Shown here in pieces: positions 2,015 to 63,799 of a DNA stretch of 64,000 nucleotides. The DNA lies in contig ML996687.1 of assembly GCA_010356995.1 (NCBI GenBank), positions 1,769,148-1,833,147 of the forward strand, written 5' to 3'. Under the pieces are notes generated by a model, which did no database searches, was not told the DNA's origin, and saw only the letters and a list, made by a program, of their open reading frames with translations. Numbering within the stretch: position 1 is the stretch's first letter; every line of letters begins with the position of its first letter. The translations under genes and the position numbers were made by a program. Origin of the DNA: Trichodelitschia bisporula (taxonomy: Eukaryota > Ascomycota > Dothideomycetes > Phaeotrichales > Phaeotrichaceae).

Positions 2015-2954
2015 GTTTCCTTCGTGTTTTGCATTTGGCATTCGATACTGGAAGAGCGACGGAGTGCAAAGGCATGGGTGTTTATGTCGATTGTACAGTT
2101 GTTTTTGAAAGCGTAGATTTAGAGCTCGGCTGTGGGCGGCCCAATACATGTAGCAGTGAGCATCTAGTGATAAGCATAGCATCCGGATTGAACGATTAAA
2201 AGATAACACCATGCACATCGTATCCTGCCGCTCTTCAGTGCGGACGCGCTCAAGCCAAATGTGCATCCAAGGGCCAAGGGGGCCAAGGCCAAGGCGAATC
2301 TCGGTCGGTCGGGACGGACAATTGTTCTGCCGCAAGTTGTTCCAGGGCGGCATAAAAAGCTGGCGGAGCAACAGAATCTTCTCCTCTTCACGAACAACGC
2401 AAACAAAGAACACTCACTAAAAAGCATTTTCGACTTCGAGACGCCCGTCGCGCAAGCGATGTGAGGCTTCCATGAAAACGAAAACCGTCAGCTGAGTGGA
2501 GAACACATTTTGCGGCAGATCTTGGGTGCGGTCTCCTTCTCCCTAATGGGCATGTGGAGGAGAGCGCAATGATCAGCTGTACATACCGAGGGATTCGCAT
2601 AGAATTTGAGAATAGAATCATGAGAATAGCATATGCAGTTCAAGATGCTATTTTCCTGTGACATTGCCAGCCATTTTTCCAAGCATTAAGGCTGCATGCT
2701 TACGTGCAACTTCCTGAGCGACACCATCTAAGTGACAATCTTTGCATCGCCACAGCCGAACTGCTGTGCCACAGCCCCTCCGCTTTTCTCGCGCCAAGAT
2801 TTCGAACCGAAGTGGCGGACAATTTCTCTATGCACCACAGAACCGCCGACCTAACGACTACACCCCCCAACCACCCACTACCCCACCACAACTATCTTGC
2901 GCACCACCACCACCCTTTCTCACCGTAAAGTTTCCTCGGTCGCCTTCGCTCATC
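2015..2954. other. Intergenic region, transporter to eIF3m
   Basis: The 3' flank of the transporter and the promoter/leader of eIF3m. The last ~100 bases are C/A-rich (repeated CCACCA), a typical fungal leader. Short G/C-rich repeats of GGCCAAG lie near 2272-2296. I see no gene or tRNA. Confidence 0.6.
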
Positions 2955-4329
2955 ATGCCGGGGCCTGCAAACACCCTCCTCATCGAGGGCACGACCGAAG
3001 AACTCATCGATGAGCTCGCACAGTACATTGATAACCTCCGCAAGTCCCAAAATGGCGAGGGTCCTGCGATATCACAGGAAGTGAACAACCTGGTGCAGGA
3101 GAAGAAAATGGAGGAGGCTCTTAAGAAGCTGGTGACAGCCAGCGCTGTACTCAACACGGCGCCAGAGAAGGGTACAGAACCGTGACCACAGTTGTCGCGC
3201 AGCGCACAAACGCTAATACATGGCTGCAGAAATCATCGCGGCGTACAATCTTCTCCTACACATCACGAGGCAGGCGCCAAAGCCTGAGATGTTCCTCCCG
3301 AAGATTTGCTCGAATCTCACCAAGCCGATTCCCTCCTCTCCGAACAACGGTGCCGGAATTGCCCTCGCCATCCTCAGCACCATCTTCAATATCACCTCAC
3401 CTGACAAAGAGACCCGGTTTCACATCTTCATGGGCATACTGTCTGTGATCCGCTCCAGCTCCAACTTCGAGACCCTGAAGCCACAACTGAAGAACATCGA
3501 GGCCTGGCTCGCGGCGTGGGAAATTGACGATGAAGATCAGCGCAAGCTCTACCTCGAGGTCGCCGAAGCTGCGCTCGCCAGCGGTGAGGGTAACGAAGCA
3601 TACGGGTATCTTATTCGTGCTCTGCGCACCGTCCCTACCGACGAGAGCAGCAGCGAAGAGGCTCGCAAGTTGGCGCTCCGCGCCCTCAAATTCGCTCTCA
3701 TTCACCCGGCACATTTTGACTTCCAGGACCTCACCTCGCTCGATGCTATCCAGGCTCTACGCAAGTCAGACCCCGTGCACTTCGAGCTGCTCGAGATCTT
3801 CACGTCAGAGATGCTGGATGATTTCAATGACTTCAAGGATGAGCACGACGACTGGATAGAGAGCCAGAACCTCGACAGAGACGCCCTCAACCGGAAGATG
3901 CGTCTGCTGACGCTGACTTCGCTTGCGGCCCAGGCTAGCCAGACTCGCGCACTGCCCTATGCACATATCGCCAAGGCGCTGCAGGTCCCCACCGAGGACG
4001 TGGAGATGTGGGTCATTGACGTGATCCGCGCCGGACTCGTCGAGGGCAAGCTGAGCCAGCTGAATCAGCAGTTCCTCATTCACCGTAGCACATACCGCGT
4101 GTTCGGTGAGAACCAGTGGCGCGAGGTGGCTGCACGCCTGGATATGTGGCGGAAGAGTCTTATCGGTGTCTTGGGCGTCGTTCGGCAAGAGAAGGAGAAC
4201 TTCATCATCCAGAAGGAACAGGAGATGAGGGATCTGGAGGCCAAAGCCAACGGCACGAACCAGGGCGGCGGCGGTGGTGGAAACTACCGGAATCGGCAAC
4301 CCAGAACTGTCGAGGTAGAAGCGGACTGA
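2955..4329 (+). CDS. Translation initiation factor eIF3 subunit m
   Basis: Exons 2955-3171 and 3230-4329, 438 aa. The 58-nt intron begins GTACAG, has a perfect CTAAT branch site and ends CTGCAG. Removing it joins APEK to EIIAAYNLL, as in other fungal eIF3m proteins. The N-terminal helical repeats start MPGPANTLLIEGTTEELIDE, and a PCI domain follows in the C-terminal half; the winged-helix part includes ALQVPTEDVEMWVIDVIRAG and VEGKLSQL. The tail is Gly-rich. Role: a structural subunit of the eIF3 complex that assembles the 43S preinitiation complex in the cytosol. The ATG at 2955 is the first in the spliced frame that matches the family start. Its 3' end faces URA6 (convergent). Confidence 0.93.
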
Positions 4330-18037: not shown

Positions 18038-20233
18038 TCATGTGGGAAAGGGTAACACTGCCGGTGCCGCCGGCAAGGGCATGTCTGACGCCAGCCAGTC
18101 CTGATCAATGTCCATACTCATGGTTTGCCAGTTGAAGCTCGAGCCCATGTACGACGTCGGCATTAAATTCCCATCCGGAGAGTGCCCTTCGAACGACGGC
18201 GGAGGCATATAAAAGCCGTCGTAGGCAATGAACGGATCCATTGAGCTGTACGTTGAAGCCGTATGCTGTGAAATGTCGGGTATACTCGGTGTTGAAGGTC
18301 CGGTGACGGAGCTGGCAGTAGACTGCGTCGACGTGGAAGCGGTGGTTCTTTGCTTGAACCACTGGCCCCTCCGAATCGAAATCATGCCGAAGAACGGAAT
18401 GAATATCTTCAGCATGTCATTACCACAGCTTGCCTCGAGACTACAATCAGTGTCGCGAGCCTGCGACAGCTTCTCCAGCGCCTCGTAGCCCTGAGCCGCG
18501 ACTTGGCCTCCTTTCTCGCCTGAAGCGCGCTTCAGGATCTCCATCGTTTTCTCTACGGACGTCCAGTCCGCTTCGTCTTGTTGCACGCCATCGTTTTCTT
18601 TGCCCCCGTAGCCCAGCAGCCCGAGGACAAGGAACACGGAAGCAGTGAACCCGATAAAATCAACCGCCTTGCATTCGTACATCGGCATGCCCTCGGCGCG
18701 GAGCATGTGGTACAGGCGCAGGAGCTCGCGGGCACCGTCTAAGCAGGCACGGCGGCTGTGCTCGTACCCTATGTTCGTGGCCGATTTAAGCATGAAGGGG
18801 AGGTGGAGGTAGACTTTCAGCTGGTGGAAGGCAATCTGCGAGAGCACTTTCTCCTGCCACTCGGTCACGGCCTTTACGTCTTCGAAAACAGTCTGCGGCT
18901 TCGTGCTCAGCCACCCGGGCGGCAGCTGGGCGGCAAACTCGGTGAGTTCCTGCTCAAAGTCCAGGGCGGAGGAGTAGGTCGCTTCGCGCAGGCCTTGGTT
19001 CCGGTCTACCACTCGTCCTGCGAAGTAGCCGATCTTGGCCATGAAGGCGTGGGGAGCGGACGCGGCGTTGAGCTTTGTGCCGCCGAAGTCCATGTTGCAA
19101 TGGGCGTCTGCGATCCCGTACGGTAGACCAAGCATCAAGCTCGTAAGGCGATCAGCCACATAGAGCGTCCACCAGATGGACTCTCGTGGTGACGAGAATG
19201 CCCGGGCTTGGTGGAGGCCCAACAGCTCGGCAAAGAGCAGGCCGCGGCGGAAGACAAGCCACGAGCGACGCGCCTGCCCGATATCGGCGTAAATCTTGCC
19301 CTGGAAAATGGAGCACTCAATCCCCTCCAGGGTTCCCATGTACTCATCGTCGGAGATAATCCATCGGTCAACCAGGTTCACGCAGTGGTCGAGATGGTCG
19401 TCATCGACGCAAGACCCAAACATGAGGACGAGGATGCCGAGCTCGCTGGGGGTTCCGACTGTGAGGGCGCGGTTCAAGAATTGCTCCATTGTATACATGC
19501 CGCCTGTTCCCGGGCACTTCTTCCGGAACACAGACCATATTTCGGCCGAGCGGTTGAGGGTATCCTTGAGCTTTTCGTAGGCTGGAAGCACTGCGAGAAG
19601 CTCGCGGCGGACGCGACTGGCCTTAAGCTGGGCTGGAGTTTGGCCGGAGCCCTGGGAGACGAAGCTGCCGTGCTTCATTTTGGAGGAAGAGAGTGCGGGA
19701 GGGGTGGTCGCGACGGAAGGCTTATGGTGCTCGGCAGTGCTCAGTACGTCGTTATCGAAGAGCGAAAGCAGAGGGGCCTTCCGGCCTCCACTCTCACTTG
19801 CAATATCTCTAGGAGGTGTGCTATCGGACTGTGGAGTGGCACTGGAGTGGTGACTAGTAGTTCCCAGCTCCCGAAGTACTTCGGCGGCTCGTCGGTCATG
19901 GCTGTGCTCGACCATGGAGTCTACGAGGGCTTCCAGCCGGGCCACCCGCTCCCGCAGGTTCTTTCGCTGGTCCAGTACGGCATCACTTTCGGCATGTTCT
20001 TGATCGATGCATCGTGATCCTCGGGCGAAGCATTCGGTACATACGGAGGGATGGTCCGAGGTGAATATGCATCGGATCTTCCTCCGGCGACCTGAGCATT
20101 GTCAGGTCTGGCCCCACATAATCCAGGTGAAACTAAGCTTACATTCAAAGCAGCTGTGGGTGCCTTTCCGCATCTTTTTGCGGATGCCGCCCTCACGTGG
20201 GCCGGGTTCTGTCGAACTGCGGATGGATGCCAT
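18038..20233 (-). CDS. Zn2Cys6 transcription factor with fungal-specific TF domain
   Basis: Exons 20233-20143 and 20091-18038, 714 aa. The 51-nt intron (GTAAGC...CTCAG) lies inside the zinc cluster and splits its second cysteine codon. Spliced, the cluster is C-X2-C-X6-C-X9-C-X2-C-X6-C starting at CFEC|RRRKIRC and ending RGSRC. A linker and short coiled coil follow (LDQRKNLRERVARLEALVD). The middle homology region (Fungal_trans) contains GQARRSWLVFRRGLLFAELLG and SIWWTLYVADRLTSLMLGLPYG. The start is fixed because an in-frame TGA precedes it. Role: DNA-binding regulator; target pathway unknown. Palindromic CGG sites in its own promoter suggest autoregulation (separate entry). Confidence 0.92.
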
Positions 20234-53907: not shown

Positions 53908-55146
53908 TCATCGTTCTACGTGCTTCTCTTCACGGTTCAGCAGCTCCCGTGCCGCAATGACCTCAGCCCTGTCGTACCCGTCCCATCCTCGCTCTGCAGC
54001 AGCGTTCCGCCTAACGATGTTTGCAAGTCGCTCGGTTGACTTTTCGTTAAGACGCTCGACGATTTGGACCGAAGGCAGGGGCAGGTCGGAGAAGGCGGAA
54101 TCCGTGGTATTGGAAGCGGACTTCGGGGCACTAGGAAGAACTTCCAGCAGCCGCTTGGTGACCTAGCCTGTTAGCATCGAAAATCAAACAAGACGTCTGT
54201 AGCTACCAGTTTGAGGCCGTAGTAGCCGCGGAGATAATTATCGCAGAGCTCAATGCTTCTGCAATACCGCCGCATAGATTCAGCCATGGCCCGAATGGCC
54301 TCGCCTGGGTTGCTGGAAAAGATAGACTGTCCATAGAGGAACGTGACTTCCGCTAACCGCGCATGCACCTGTCCTTGTCAATGATATCCACTTGAGGACC
54401 ACTGAACCCACATTCCACGCATGCGGGAGAATCAAGATGATCTCCTCCAGACAGAAGATGGCGCGCTCAAAGTCGCTTTGCGAAACATACAGCTCCGCGA
54501 GCTCCGACCACGCCTCGCCGTCAGTAGGCGAAGAGTTTAGGAACTCGACGAGCTGGGTGATGGCCTCTGGTATGCGGCCCATCGACTTGAGAAGTGCTAT
54601 GCGGCGCTTTTGCACGGGCTATTTCTGTTAGTTGCTAGATACAACCAGAGGTAAGGACCAGGCGCTGGGTGAGAAGCCGGTGGTTCCCATCGTTTCCATA
54701 ATCGTGGGCTGCCACAAGTCGTGGACACGAGGGGGAGCGCCGGGTTCTCACCCAACCCCGGTTGTACGCACAAAGTTCGTAGGCTCCTTCTCAAGCTCGG
54801 CTTTATACTCATCCAGCACTTTGATGCAGTCCTGCTCCGTCTCTGCCTTTGATTCGGCCCACATGCCCTTAAACGCCATGACCCGCTCATTGGACTCGCC
54901 GAACCGCGCAACGAGCCTATCCAGCAGCAACCGAGCCGACTTGTCATCACCGGTGCGTAAGCACGCAAGATACACGTTCTCGTACGTCCCCCATGTGTCC
55001 TGCGTTTCGTTGCCGAAGAGGACGGAAAGCGGCCACGGGAGCGTCGCGGCAATGGAAGGCTGGAGGATATGCGGCGCCTGCTGGGAGAGATACAGTGTCT
55101 CCTCTTTTGTGAGATTCGGCGGCGGCGAGATAAGATCGACGGACAT
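53908..55146 (-). CDS. emc2: ER membrane protein complex subunit 2 (EMC2)
   Basis: Exons 55146-54772, 54618-54412, 54368-54207 and 54162-53908, 332 aa. Introns are 153, 43 and 44 nt; the first is long for this window and ends AAATAG. The protein is a TPR solenoid: ENVYLACLRTGDDKSARLLL, PVQKRRIALLKSMGRIPEAI, EAWSELAELYVSQSDFERAIFCLEE, HARLAEVTFLYGQ and RYCRSIELCDNYLRGYYGLKL, in the order found in yeast and human EMC2. A charged C-terminal region follows (EVIAARELLNREEKHVER). Role: cytosolic scaffold of the EMC insertase, which inserts tail-anchored and multipass proteins into the ER. It is divergent from AP-3 delta across 382 bp. Confidence 0.92.
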
Positions 55147-55528
55147 TGCGGGAGGTTGATGCGGAAAAACTGTTGGGTGGATGCGGAGGATGTGGTACGT
55201 AGTAAATAGTAGAACTAGAGGTTGCGACGCGTTCCAAGGGTGTTGCGACGTCGGCTTGTTCCGTGGCGGAAGCTGGCGACGCCGGTCGTCATTCACTGGG
55301 CAGCACAGGGATTAACCGCGTGCGCCTTTGCCGTGCGGGACATCAGCGAACATCGCGACATAATCCGGCCTCACGCTTCTCAGCTCGTCATGTCTGGCTA
55401 GCCTGTGTGCTCTTTCACCTCCCCGAATAATGTCTGCCCCCCGCACATACCCAGGACCGCCCGACGCACTCGCCCACCAGCTGGTTAAGCTCCGCAGACG
55501 ATAAGCTGCCCCGCGGCCCCCCACCAAT
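55147..55528. promoter_or_regulatory. Bidirectional promoter of emc2 and AP-3 delta
   Basis: 382 bp between the two start codons. No TATA box stands out. A minus-strand frame across 55312-55729 overlaps the AP-3 start and is not supported. Confidence 0.5.
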
Positions 55529-58500
55529 ATGTACGAGCTCATATAATTCTTGACTGTAGATAGCAAGCCTGACGAGTGTAGGTTCGAAAAATCGCTCTAC
55601 GACCTCATTCGAGGTCTGCGGAACCACAAAGGGAACGAGAAGGAGTACATCCAGGAAAGCCTGCGAGAATGTCGCAAGGAAATCAGGAGCCAGGACATGA
55701 GTTCGTCTCCCTGCAGATAGGATGGACAATGCTGAGCTCTCTAGACCTCAAGGCTACGGCCCTGCTCAAGATTACGTACCTGGAGATGTTCGGGTACGAC
55801 ATGTCGTGGGCGTCGTTCAACGTTCTGGAGGTCATGTCTTCGCAAATCTACGGACAAAAAAAGGTTGGATATCTCGCCGCCATCCAGAGCTTCCGGCCGG
55901 ACACCGAAGTCCTGATGCTAGCTGAAAATTTACTGAAGAAGGTGGGTAACTCCTGAGCTTATGGAACAGCCGTTAACCTGCTAGGACCTGACTTCGCCCA
56001 CACCAGTAGTCATAACTCTACCTCTAGTCGCTATTCCTCATGTGGTCAACCCGTCCATGGCGAACTCTCTGCTCTCAGACCTGCTCCCTCGTCTCACCCA
56101 CTCCCACGCCGCCATCCGTAAGAAGACCATCGTCACTCTGTACCGCCTCGCCCTGGTGTATCCCGAAACCCTTCGTCCGGCATGGCCGAAGATCAAGGAG
56201 CGCCTTCAAGACGAAAACGAAGATCCCAGTGTCACGTCTGCTATCGTCAATGTCGTCTGCGAGTTGGGATGGAGACGCCCACAAGACTTCTTACCCCTTG
56301 CTCCTCGACTCTTCGATCTGTTGGTTGCGGGTGGCAACAACTGGATGGCAATCAAGCTGATCAAGCTTGTAAGCGGATCATCTCCTTATCGTTACCGGAG
56401 CTAACTCGACAGTTTGCGACTCTGACCCCACTGGAGCCGAGGCTGATTAAGAAACTCCTACCCCCTCTCACGACCATCATCAAGACCACCCCTGCCATGT
56501 CCTTGTTGTACGAATGCATTCACGGCATCATACAGGGAGGCATCCTCGACAGTATTGAAGGTACCACCGAAGGCGAAGAAGTGGCACGCCTCTGCGTAGG
56601 CAAACTCCGCAGCATGCTTGTCGTAGAGGGCGACCCTAACCGTAAGTCTTTATACCTTTTCAAGCCTATGCTGAACCGTTCAGTCAAATTCGTTGCACTT
56701 CTGGCATTCCAGAAGATTGTTACATCGCATCCGCATTTGGTTTCGCTGCATCAAGATGTCATCCTTGAGTGCATCGATGACCCCGACATCTCTATCCGCA
56801 TGAGGGCGCTCGACCTCGCCGTGGGGATGGTCAATCCCGAAAATGTCGCCATGATCGTAGAGCGGCTCCTGCGCCAGCTGTTCGAAGCTCCAGTTGCCAC
56901 GGCTGCAGACGACATCACGAACGACCGTGGTATGCACAACGGGGTCGAGCCTGCAGCTGACTCGGACGACGAGGGTGCTGGCGAGGCGCTACGCCCAGCG
57001 GAGCGTAAATCGAGCCTGCCACCGCCATTGCCGGAGGAGTACAGGGTGAACGCCATTCGCAGCATTCTGGAAATCTGTTCACGAGACACTTACGCCAATC
57101 TCAGTGATTTTGACTGGTACCTCGATGTGCTGGTGAAGCTAGTCAAGGCATGCCCGACAGTCCAGCCATCATCCACGAACGACGATTCCCTTTCGGACGA
57201 TTCCAGAGACAACCGCGACATATCTTACGCGATTGGCCGGGAGTTGCAGAACGTGGCTGTCCGAGTCAAGAGCATGCGGACCGAGGCTGCGGCGGCGGCG
57301 CAATTCCTTCTGCTCACCGACTCCCGCGACAAGCTCTTTCCCGCTCACGGCAACGGCGGCCGCGGCGTTCTGGGTTACTGCGCCTGGATCGCCGGGGAAT
57401 ACGCCCCCTTCCTCACCAGCCCCGAAGCCGTCCTAGACTCGCTCCTCCACTCCTCGACAACCCGACTACCACCCCCCACCCTTGCCATCTCCATCCACGC
57501 CATCCTGAAACTCGTAACCCATATCTGCGGCTCGGGCATGACATGGACGCCCCACCGCCGCACCACGACCGCCCTCCTCCTAGCGAAGACAATCCACTTC
57601 CTTGAGCCACTCGCTTCGCACCCCGCCCTCGAGGTTCAGGAGCGCGCCGTCGAGTACCTAGAGCTCCTCCGCCTCGCCGCCGAAGCCGCAACCGGCCACC
57701 CAGCTTCAGACGAAGCTTTTGCCGAGCCCCCCCTGCTGCTCACGCAAGCCCTCCCCGCGCTCTTCACCGGCATGGAACTCAACCCTGTCGCGCCGGGGGC
57801 GTTGCGCAAGGTCCCCCCCCCCGCGGACATCGACCTCGATGCACCGATCAATCCGAATCTAGCGGCCATCCTGCGAGCGGCCGAGGAAGATGATCTGTCC
57901 GAGGAACTCCAAGACGGGTTCGAAATCTTCTACAAGCAGCGCCCGGAGGGTATCGCGATTTCTGACTCGGCTGTTTCGGCGGCTGCGCGTCTTGAGGCGG
58001 CGCTTAAATCTGACCTGAGTTCATCATATCAGAACCCGAGTCCGGTGGAGGACGACGCGACAACAGCGAGACGGCGAGCGGAACGTCGTGAGCGGTATAA
58101 GGATGATCCGTTTTATATTGCGAGCGACGAGGACTCCGGGTCGGGGTCGCAGATGCATCGCATTATCAAGAACAGTAATGGTGGGGAGGAGATCGATATT
58201 GACGCCATTCCGATTATGGATCTGGAGCTTGAGCATGGGGAGTTACTGCGCGCGGCGGCGCCGGCGAAGAAGAAGGCCTCACGGCGGAGGGTGGAGATTG
58301 TGGCGGATGAGAATTTGGGGGGTGATGGGGAGGATGCGTCGCGGCCGGACCCGGTGCGCCCGGTGCCTGCCCGTGGGAAGAAGAGCGTGTTGCTTGTGGA
58401 CTCGAGTGGGCTGGGGTCGCTGTCGCTGGAGGGCGATTCAGGCGGTACGCTGGACATCGAGCAGCGCGAGGCGGAGGAGAAGGCGCTACGGGAAGTGGAG

Positions 58501-58791
58501 CGGCTAAGGCTGGAGATGCAGCGGGCCTCTGAGCGGATTCAGGCGAAGGAGGAGGGGGTTGTGGTGCGGAAGAAGAAGAAGAAGAGGGTTGTTAAGGATG
58601 TGGGGGAGGGGGCTGGGGGGGAGGCGGAGGCGAGTGCGCCGCCTGAGGGGGAGAAGACGGTTAAGAAGAAGAAGAAAAAGAAGGGGAAGGAGGGGGATGC
58701 CCCTCCGGTTGCGGTGGAGGAGGGGGTGGCGGCGAAGCCGAAGAAGAAGAAGAGGCAGATTGATATGACGGATGCAGCTGTTCCGGCTTAG
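55529..58791 (+). CDS. apl5: AP-3 adaptor complex subunit delta
   Basis: Exons 55529-55530, 55582-55700, 55745-55941, 55985-56368, 56413-56641 and 56684-58791, 1012 aa. The start codon is split: AT at 55529-55530 and G at 55582, giving MFEKSLYDLIRGLRNHKGNE, the family start. Without this splice the frame has a TAA at 55544 and no ATG before QDM. The HEAT-like adaptin trunk (residues 1-~560) includes ITYLEMFGYDMSWASFNVLEVMSS and GRGVLGYCAWIAGEYAPFL. The intron 56642-56683 has 42 nt and no stop; removing it restores GDPNLKFVALLAF. The C-terminal hinge is acidic, then Lys-rich (VRKKKKKRV, KKKKKKKGK). Role: sorts cargo from the Golgi/endosome to the vacuole. Confidence 0.92.
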
Positions 58792-60622: not shown

Positions 60623-61316
60623 GGTGGATTCTGATGGCTGAATTCCCGGGAAGTTTCGGCGCTCTGGTAGGCCGTCACTACAGAGCTGGCTGGAGAAGGC
60701 TGCATTGCCGCATTCAACGCCGCAGCAGTTAAGACTGGGACTCTGGTCAACTGGCTGTCCGCCTCTAATGTCGCCTTTTCCTACCAGAATTGCTAGTAGT
60801 GTTGTCGTCTCACAGGACAAGATGTAAGTATTTCAGGCTGTCGCGTTTGACGCACGGGACGACGTTGGTTAAATGGAACTAGGAGATGTACAGCAAAGAA
60901 CTTTGGTGATTCTTCGGGCATTCAGGACATCGCACTACATGTAGAAATAATGGCCGAATTTCCCATCATATTCAATTTTCACGGTCAAAACACACTGGCC
61001 ATAGATCACATCGTCATTGATGCAGATGTAAGAAGGAGCATCCGTACCCTTGGAAGGAGCGCTCGGAGGACGTGGGTGAAAAGTGTACCCATATATGGGT
61101 GACCTCGCCGCTCACCCTCTCTCTTGTTGTTCTTCGTCTTCTACACACTTTCACTATGCATTTGTTGCCCTTGCATGTGTCGTGAGCTATGCTCCCAATG
61201 TCATCCAGCACTTAATCCTCACCACCCTACTTCATTGAAAAAAATGCTCGTTCATCCCCGTCGCGCCTTCCCCATCTTCAAAACTCAAACCGGCAAAAAG
61301 TGAAGTCCACCCATCA
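60623..61316. other. Intergenic region
   Basis: 694 bp between the 60097 gene and the tRNA. No gene seen. A T-rich tRNA terminator lies near 61299 on the minus strand. Confidence 0.5.
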
Positions 61317-61400
61317 AGCCCGAGGCGGGGCTCGAACCCGCGACCTTGAGATAATCCCTTGGTTAAGAGTCACACGCTCTACCGATTGAGCTACCCAGGC
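61317..61400 (-). tRNA. tRNA-Lys(CTT) with an 11-nt intron
   Basis: Read on the minus strand from 61400. Acceptor stem GCCTGGG pairs with CTCGGGC, discriminator T. D arm is GCTC-AATCGGTA-GAGC. Anticodon stem TGTGA with loop CTCTTAA (anticodon CTT) is followed by an 11-nt intron CCAAGGGATTA in the usual 37/38 position, then TCTCA, which pairs with one T-T mismatch. Variable loop AGGTC; T arm GCGGG-TTCGAGC-CCCGC. Length 84 = 73 + 11. A TTTTT tract follows about 15 bases after the 3' end, as expected for RNA polymerase III. The A and B boxes are internal. Confidence 0.93.
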
Positions 61401-63799
61401 TGGTTGATTTGGATGCCGAAAAGTGGGTGGGGTGGGCTTTTGGCAATGTCCGGCCGGGCCGGGCGGAGGGAGGAGGGCTCGGAGAGATGGATGGGCTTGG
61501 CCCGGCTGGATGGGATTGGATACAAGGGAGATGACTGCTGCGTGTCGATACGGGGCGCGATACTGTAGTAGATCGGGGAGTGAGATGGGGGAGTTGAGTC
61601 TGAGTATGCATCAGCGAGTTGGTGTCATCAACGATTGAAGCCCCGCCGAGTCCAACCTGCCCATACCCGCGAAGTCCGCTAATTCACCGCAGTTATCCGA
61701 AATATTCCTTTCGGACCGAAAGCCACAGCCAGTTGAACCGTATTCTCAAGCTCGGAGGCACCTCCGCTTCCTCCCCCGTAGAACCCCATCCCGGCCCCCG
61801 CATCCGCCTCCGCGCCGAGTCACCCACCACCCATGTCAGCATCAAGCCAGCGCTTGCAGCGGCGCAGTACTGTAACTCACTGATAAATAGAGCAACCCCT
61901 CCCTCTTCTCACCACGCGAATGAAGGACTACCGCACAGGTCCCACGTAGCGAGTAAACGCCTCTAGCGGAATTTCCCGCAGCCCTACCGCGACAAGGCTG
62001 ACCACCTTTCGCCACCGCATGGCCTGGCAGATACGCGGCAACAACAACCGAATCTCCACGTTCCTTCCAGCCTGGCTCTGACGCGCCCGCCCCGATCGCC
62101 GACGCGTGCCTGCCAAGCTGCGCAGAGTGCGCTTGCGCGGCGGTAATATGTTGCCACGGCCAAGGCTAGGGGTGTGCGATGTAGACAGGGCAAGAGAAAC
62201 GAGGTTCGAGGAAGGGTGCGTTGAGGTTGAGTAAGGGTACGTTGGGGTTCGTGCAGGCAGCTGGTCGACGTTGGGCGACAGGTAAGGGGCCCATTCGGCG
62301 CGGCTCTGTGATACGGCAACTCGGTGTCTGCAACCGGCCTCGTCCCCGAAATGGCATCGGACCTCACACCGCATCCGCCGTTGCACCCTCCCGTACGGAA
62401 TATATTTCCCACCGCCTCGCCCTGCGTGTGCGCCACAGTGGCGAGTGCGTCCGCCATGCCTCGTCCCGCCCCGACCCCTCCACTTACCTAACCTCTCACC
62501 TGCCGCACCCTACAATCTGCCAGGCCCGACAGGGAAAGTTGACGCGTTGAACAGTTGTACTGGTAGGGCTAGAAAGCACGCGCCGAAGCTACTGTACCGG
62601 CAGCTGGTGCAGCTGAAGTTCTCGCCTTTTGCCCTGCGGCATTCATCCCGACCACCGGACACCTTCGCCACCTCCGGGTGCGGCTTGCGGGCTTGGCAAG
62701 CTGCATGGCGCCTGTGGGGCTGGCGCAGGGTTGCAAGCGTGAGTATGGGCTGACTGCTGGGGGGGCGGGGGGATGCAGGTTTGCTTGCTTGGGGAATAAT
62801 GGGAATAGAGATGGTGGGGATGGGATGTACCGCACGGTGTTGTAGCCGCGGTGTTTCAGAGAGCGGGAGGTGGGGCGGTGCGGCTGCGTGCCACAGCATA
62901 CGGCGCGGGGGAGGGAGGGGAACTTTGAACGGAATGAATCCGCAATTGATGATGGGCGGCTGGAGGGCAGGACTGTGCGGCGTGTTTGGGGTGCAGCGCG
63001 GCGCGGCGCGAATATGCTTGAGACGTCGGCATGAGGTGGTGCGGGTACTGATGGAGGTGCGGCAGATGGGCGTGTCTGTTGAAATGTCAAGACTCGACAA
63101 GGTCTGATGTGCAGGGAAGCTAAATGTCAGCAAAGCCGGTGTGGCGTTGGTTCGCCGTATGCGAGATGCAGCCGATACTGCAGGTATCTAGTCACGTGAT
63201 GGAGCAAAACATCTGCTGCAAAAAGATGGAGTTTCAGAAGAGCACAGCCTCGACAGGTACGGCGTCTTCTCTGCCGGCGTCTAAATGTATTGCGTTGCGC
63301 CTGCTGCATGGGAGACACAAGGCTGAGTGTGCTGTGATGCGGGGAATGTGGAGGGCCTGGCTTGCCTGGATTTGGCATTTCTGCTGGAGATGCAACGCCG
63401 GCCCGTGTGGAGCATGCGGCTTCGCGCGGCTGGCACGGCAGCGCCTGAGGTCAGCCACACTGGGGGAGGGGGATGTTTGTCGACCTCAGCCCGGTGGTTG
63501 ACGAGGTGGAGAGGAGGACATACGGCACGTCAAGCAACGAGAGCGAATGGACTGGAATACGGCGATTTCCTGCTCGTCTGCTCAGCTCCATGACAGCTAT
63601 GAGGGTTAAAGTAGTTTTTGTCAAGAGTGCAGCTGGAGACAAAGAGTCGCATTCTGATTTGCGGCGTTGCCTCCCCTCCCCCCTTCAGCCCCAGCCTCAA
63701 CGAGGCTGCGTCATTTCAAGCCTTTCCAGCCACCAGCCCGTCGCTCTTTCGCCCTTTTCTGCATCTTATCAACAATCAACATCAATCGATCAGTTCACC
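61401..63799. other. Gene-poor GC-rich region
   Basis: About 2.4 kb. Several long frames on both strands are GC-driven and lack domains, Kozak context or splice signals. The end (63700-63799) is pyrimidine-rich with CAATCAACATCAATC, a typical leader for a gene starting near 63800. No repeats or tRNA seen. Confidence 0.5.

Follow-up and report, generated by a model that had tools for sequence, protein, structure and literature searches.

Where does translation of the AP-3 delta subunit begin in Trichodelitschia bisporula? The gene comprises six exons on the forward strand (55529-58791) of the window, by which we mean the whole stretch of 64,000 nucleotides that was analysed, and FEKSLYDLIRGLRNHKG, its conserved N-terminus, is encoded from 55583 onwards. 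The TTC of F2 (55583) directly follows an AGG codon (55580-55582), which leaves this N-terminus without a genomic ATG, and the first in-frame stop met on going upstream is a TAA that begins only 39 nt 5′ of F2; both features can be read directly in the sequence and agree with the original prediction. That prediction proposed that a 51-nt GT-AG intron lies inside the start codon, such that its excision joins AT to G. The donor, CTGAC and acceptor elements it named are all in place (Table 1), removal of 55531-55581 yields the joined start MFEKSLYDLIRG, and translation of the joined exons gives a full spliced model of 1012 aa, as had been stated. Likewise, the unspliced AUG at 55529 encodes MYELI and then a stop. 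The split ATG is directly preceded by the context ACCAAT, and the frame 5′ of AT reaches a TAA at 55502-55504, with no ATG in between. No uninterrupted in-frame ATG appears to serve as the start; rather, predicted splicing would create an ATG at the conserved N-terminus.

Table 1. Features of the AP-3 delta gene and its 5′ region in the window.
Feature	Position	Strand	Basis or remark
Exon 1 coding part, AT (start codon bases 1-2)	55529..55530	+	Remainder of exon 1 predicted 5′ UTR
Intron 1, 51 nt, GTACGA...GTGTAG, phase 2, splits start codon	55531..55581	+	Score 11.83
TAA within intron 1, stop of MYELI ORF	55544..55546	+	Translation
CTGAC, presumed branch site, 8 nt from intron 1 end	55569..55573	+	Motif
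Exon 2: G of ATG, then FEKSLYDLIRGLRNHKG...SQDM	55582..55700	+	Aligned to human and yeast AP-3 delta
Intron 2, 44 nt	55701..55744	+	Gene model
Exon 3	55745..55941	+	Gene model
Intron 3, 43 nt	55942..55984	+	Gene model
Exon 4	55985..56368	+	Gene model
Intron 4, 44 nt	56369..56412	+	Gene model
Exon 5	56413..56641	+	Gene model
Intron 5, 42 nt, stop-free, multiple of three	56642..56683	+	Gene model
Exon 6, including stop codon	56684..58791	+	Gene model
Upstream ORF, 24 codons, MSAPRTYPGPPDALAHQLVKLRRR	55430..55504	+	Relevant only if transcription begins 5′ of the ORF

The identity of the gene was examined by domain and sequence comparison. Two of three segments of the product matched Pfam Adaptin_N (E 1.4e-17 and 3.4e-25, above the curated cut-off), while the 40-aa N-terminal piece alone matched none of the Pfam families. 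With the first 377 residues as the query, the best five of 39 PDB sequences were all AP-3 delta (E 1.9e-113 to 7.3e-89): human delta was matched over 377 residues at E 1.9e-113 and yeast delta at 7.3e-89, and the next-best adaptor subunit was AP-4 epsilon, at 2.8e-28. As judged from these comparisons, the product is closer to AP-3 delta than to the other AP large subunits. Queries of viral_contigs and genome_contigs, whose virus and prokaryote sequences would hardly include a fungal gene, yielded no relative. Homology to the N-terminus is also directly observed. Residues 2-39 align without a gap to human delta, and with a three-residue insertion relative to yeast delta; the restored Met1 pairs with human AP3D1 Met13, and F2, at which the yeast alignment starts, with residue 23 of yeast Apl5. 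Before the aligned F lie 13 residues in human delta and 22 in yeast delta. Met1 is therefore common to the human protein, though the human and yeast starts lie further upstream. To our knowledge, the delta proteins of filamentous fungi begin at MFEKSL.

Upstream of the gene, on the reverse strand, lies a divergent neighbour (53908-55146) in which one of three pieces carries a TPR_EMC2 domain. Its start is approximately 380 bp from that of AP-3 delta, which points to a short promoter region common to both genes. Elsewhere in the window are a tRNA-Lys (CTT; 61316-61401, reverse strand, 86 bases) that probably contains a small intron, and a full-length Rfam match to RF01496, the Aspergillus fumigatus small RNA Afu_182 (2388-2584, forward strand, 118.5 bits against a gathering threshold of 65), which sits between predicted genes at 339-2014 and 2955-4329. 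An Rfam hit, the gene content and the type of intron together indicate that the DNA is probably that of a filamentous ascomycete.

How does intron 1 compare with the other introns of this fungus? To obtain the latter, we built a self-trained gene finder on the 64-kb window. The background comprised 30 introns, after removal of an atypical 38-nt prediction (354-391) and manual addition of two introns of AP-3 delta (55701-55744 and 56642-56683); as modelled, these 30 introns are very short, with a median of 46 nt and a range of 40-153. Intron 1 did not contribute to the donor or acceptor matrix, a hand-set matrix served for the branch site, and the other introns were scored leave-one-out. On this scale—the sum of donor, acceptor and branch scores—16 of the 30 other introns score no higher than intron 1, and a score of at least 11.83 is reached by 0.50% of the 18,936 GT-AG pairs of 38-80 nt. 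Taken singly, the donor (3.97; 12 of 30 others score no higher) and the acceptor (2.61; 10 of 30) lie slightly below the middle, and the branch site is strong. Among the 30 other introns, 13 carry CTAAC or CTGAC within their final 30 nt. In its signals, intron 1 is a typical GT-AG intron of this species.

The chance that such an arrangement arises without meaning was gauged in two ways. An equally good AT/G intron appeared in one of 20,000 mononucleotide shuffles of 55440-55579 in which the AGG was held fixed. Across both strands of the window, an equally good AT/GT...AG/G intron accompanies four of 2,158 AGG sites, among them the AP-3 delta site itself and a real internal intron of another gene. 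At this other site (20092-20144, reverse strand), a 51-nt intron (20092-20142) falls inside a Cys codon in the interior of a zinc-cluster gene, whose motif reads CFECRRRKIRC when joined. Because an equally good AT/G signal is here an internal intron, the signal alone is no proof of a start. The finder's own model of the zinc-cluster gene spans 18038-20099 and is missing its N-terminal exon.

Whether a different 5′ structure could supply the start was addressed with 33 single-intron models, each linking an ATG further 5′, in frame with AP-3 delta, to an acceptor within 55500-55640. Some acceptors in the set lie inside FEKSL or beyond it, and one or more models create a stop codon where the exons join; by taking in such flawed models, the list favours the rivals. 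Even so constituted, its top three models share the acceptor at 55581, all split an ATG, and encode an identical protein, from donors at 55531, 55432 and 55392 that give scores of 11.83, 8.46 and 6.72, respectively. The AUGs at 55390, 55430 and 55529 each precede a U and can be cut as AT/GT, the two upper donors (GTCTGG and GTCTGC) being the weaker. The best model that does not split an ATG scores 3.99, under the weakest background intron (4.85, n=30). GC donors and other acceptors were also considered, and among the 25 of 33 models listed all score lower than the split-start intron. A search for models in which a micro-exon before intron 1 is preceded by a single GT-AG intron, with intron lengths of 36-199 nt and the ATG at most 300 nt away, returned none.

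The most probable of the rival explanations holds that an upstream coding exon carries the start, for example within the ORF at 55430, and that delta bears an N-terminal extension as in yeast and human, such that the AT/G junction is not the start at all; we consider this unlikely. Such an exon is conceivable given the residues that precede the aligned F in human and yeast delta, and the 55430 ORF shares its genomic frame with FEKSL. With the C-terminal ends of the queries matched, the whole 55430 peptide fused to FEKSL edges past the version beginning with Met against yeast delta (123.3 vs 122.4 bits) and human 9c58_D (121.4 vs 120.1), but it falls under the Met version against 9rtx_d (115.7 vs 117.5); gaps of 1-2 bits carry little weight, and the fusion moreover takes in residues past the sole usable GT donor. 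FEKSL alone, with its end likewise matched, scores 121.6 (yeast), 117.9 (human 9c58_D) and 115.3 bits (9rtx_d), and in favour of the split start the added Met lifts the human 9c58_D match from 117.9 to 120.1 bits. Homology scores do not decide on the 55430 exon; splice scores do. The donor of this ORF, GTTAAG (55484), is in frame only via AAG or GAG acceptors, which before FEKSL give 3.99 and 2.32 vs 11.83 for intron 1, and the failure to find any micro-exon model tells against an upstream coding exon as well. On its splice scores, the 55430 ORF was judged an unlikely N-terminal exon. The predicted split start, for its part, is well supported by its splice signals, by the lack of a credible single-intron alternative, and by the alignment of its Met with human Met13.

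The reading that we prefer, and hold to be probable, is that an ordinary short spliceosomal intron lies inside the AP-3 delta start codon and is constitutively spliced to give a 1012-aa delta subunit. Exon 1 would consist of 5′ UTR plus AT, with the intron merely happening to sit between T and G. Constitutive splicing would join AT to G to generate AUG UUC GAA..., the start of the 1012-aa subunit, and delta would begin at a Met whose human counterpart, Met13, is internal. A transcript retaining the intron would offer an AUG, four codons and a UAA, and may be regarded as unproductive. We infer that splicing takes place, that it is constitutive, and that the unspliced transcript would probably be lost by nonsense-mediated decay, like most retained coding introns.

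The original prediction went further, proposing that splicing decides between the full-length adaptor and a minimal ORF as a possible on/off switch for AP-3. This proposal found no support as anything special to intron 1. Retention of intron 1 would leave a product of 5 aa, and that of introns 2, 3 and 4 products of 46, 110 and 245 aa, respectively; a retained intron 5 would lengthen the protein by 14 in-frame residues. Were the 28 gene-model introns to be retained, 18 would bring a stop within the intron, nine a frameshift, and one would be in frame and open, a tally to be read in the knowledge that an ORF-based finder is biased against in-frame open introns. Intron 1 does not stand out in this, since retention of almost any coding intron costs the protein. 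Nor is the brevity of the unspliced ORF distinctive: when other introns of the window are set behind AT, a stop falls inside the intron in 23 of 30 cases, at the very next codon in 15, and a minimal unspliced ORF is thus to be expected when a GT-AG intron cuts an ATG.

A narrower version of the proposal retains the split start codon and supposes that regulated retention of intron 1 turns AP-3 on and off or sets its dosage. In its favour are the mere five codons that follow the AUG upon retention, and the donor and acceptor that, taken singly, sit slightly below the middle of the window introns; in addition, in multi-intron genes of Yarrowia lipolytica with retention, the retained intron is reported to be mostly the first (15 of 21; PMC2911113). 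However, the consequence of retention is common to introns 2, 3 and 4 and to 27 of 28 gene-model introns, the minimal unspliced ORF is the expected outcome, and the score of intron 1 as a whole is mid-range, not weak. Further, no unusual RNA fold was detected at 55480-55640 (z -1.05), and no Rfam family was found at the AP-3 delta start. We regard regulated retention as a switch as very unlikely, and less probable still the specific form in which the unspliced mRNA carries a good AUG and a five-codon ORF and splicing sets the amount of AP-3 delta. Reinitiation at Met40 after the five-codon ORF could give a delta without its N-terminal segment, a segment that in the reconstituted AP3:ARF1 coat is described as adjoining the membrane (PMC13178560). 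In a transcript keeping introns 1 and 2 together, the AUG at 55669, which has an A at -3, would head a reading frame of 997 aa running through intron 2 into AP-3 delta.

Intron retention itself has precedents among ascomycetes. In Yarrowia lipolytica, retention is described as nearly always giving a premature stop and as mostly affecting first introns, and stop-free introns of a multiple of three, as is intron 5 of AP-3 delta, are reported to be underrepresented (PMC2911113). In Trichoderma longibrachiatum, the retention ratio is given as below 0.1 in 63.6% of retained introns (PMC4324775). In light of both, some retention of intron 1 would be unsurprising, and by itself no sign of regulation. 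The likeness between these systems and AP-3 delta is that retention leads to a premature stop, retention being the main type of alternative splicing reported for both fungi (PMC2911113, PMC4324775). They differ from AP-3 delta in that here the stop comes after only five codons, and that retention is hypothetical.

Ab initio gene finding spoke partly for and partly against the split start. The finder applied was a simple one whose coding model excluded AP-3 delta, although its splice matrices still included AP-3 introns 2-5. The split start was picked in six of ten settings; in the other four, the finder placed the start at 55729, with the loss of approximately the first 40 conserved residues. 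The split start was missed in the main finder run, and once split starts were penalised it was picked at no more than the two lowest intron costs. In seven of ten settings the finder also predicted a spurious split start for the zinc-cluster gene (18038-20144, reverse strand). The later start favoured in those four settings, together with the in-frame AUG at 55697 that is present once intron 2 is spliced, is consistent with the least probable of the explanations entertained here—that the first exon is unused, transcription begins within or after intron 1, and translation from Met40 (55697) gives 973 aa without the first 39 residues—but such a start would forfeit residues 2-39, which align to human and yeast delta, and would lie behind an AUG (55669) that is out of frame and has an A at -3.

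Introns that disrupt start codons are already in print. Nielsen and Wernersson (2006; PMC1626468) describe such introns, in phase 1 or 2 at position 1. As in AP-3 delta, a spliceosomal intron interrupts the ATG; the difference is that the consulted text of that study names no AP-3 gene, and that the AP-3 delta case is predicted from sequence alone. The same source describes phase 0 start codon introns, which likewise lie at the translation start, but after a complete ATG; the AP-3 delta codon is cut one base earlier. A second parallel is ribosomal protein L19 of the microsporidian Nosema ceranae, whose start codon is, according to a figure legend, interrupted by a predicted short intron (PMC2685015). 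There the gene is another one, and the lineage is very intron-poor, with predicted introns described as confined to ribosomal protein genes. Together, these two reports indicate that the split-start layout is already known, also in fungi and their kin. A literature search for a start-codon intron in an AP-3 gene found none, which is weak evidence of absence. The AP-3 delta case is a further example of a rare, already known intron position.

The import of this example is mainly practical. Gene finders that require an intact ATG will mis-annotate AP-3 delta, and even a finder that allows split starts still lost the N-terminus in four of ten settings. Its significance would be greater if retention of the intron proved to be regulated, or if its position proved to be conserved across many fungi.
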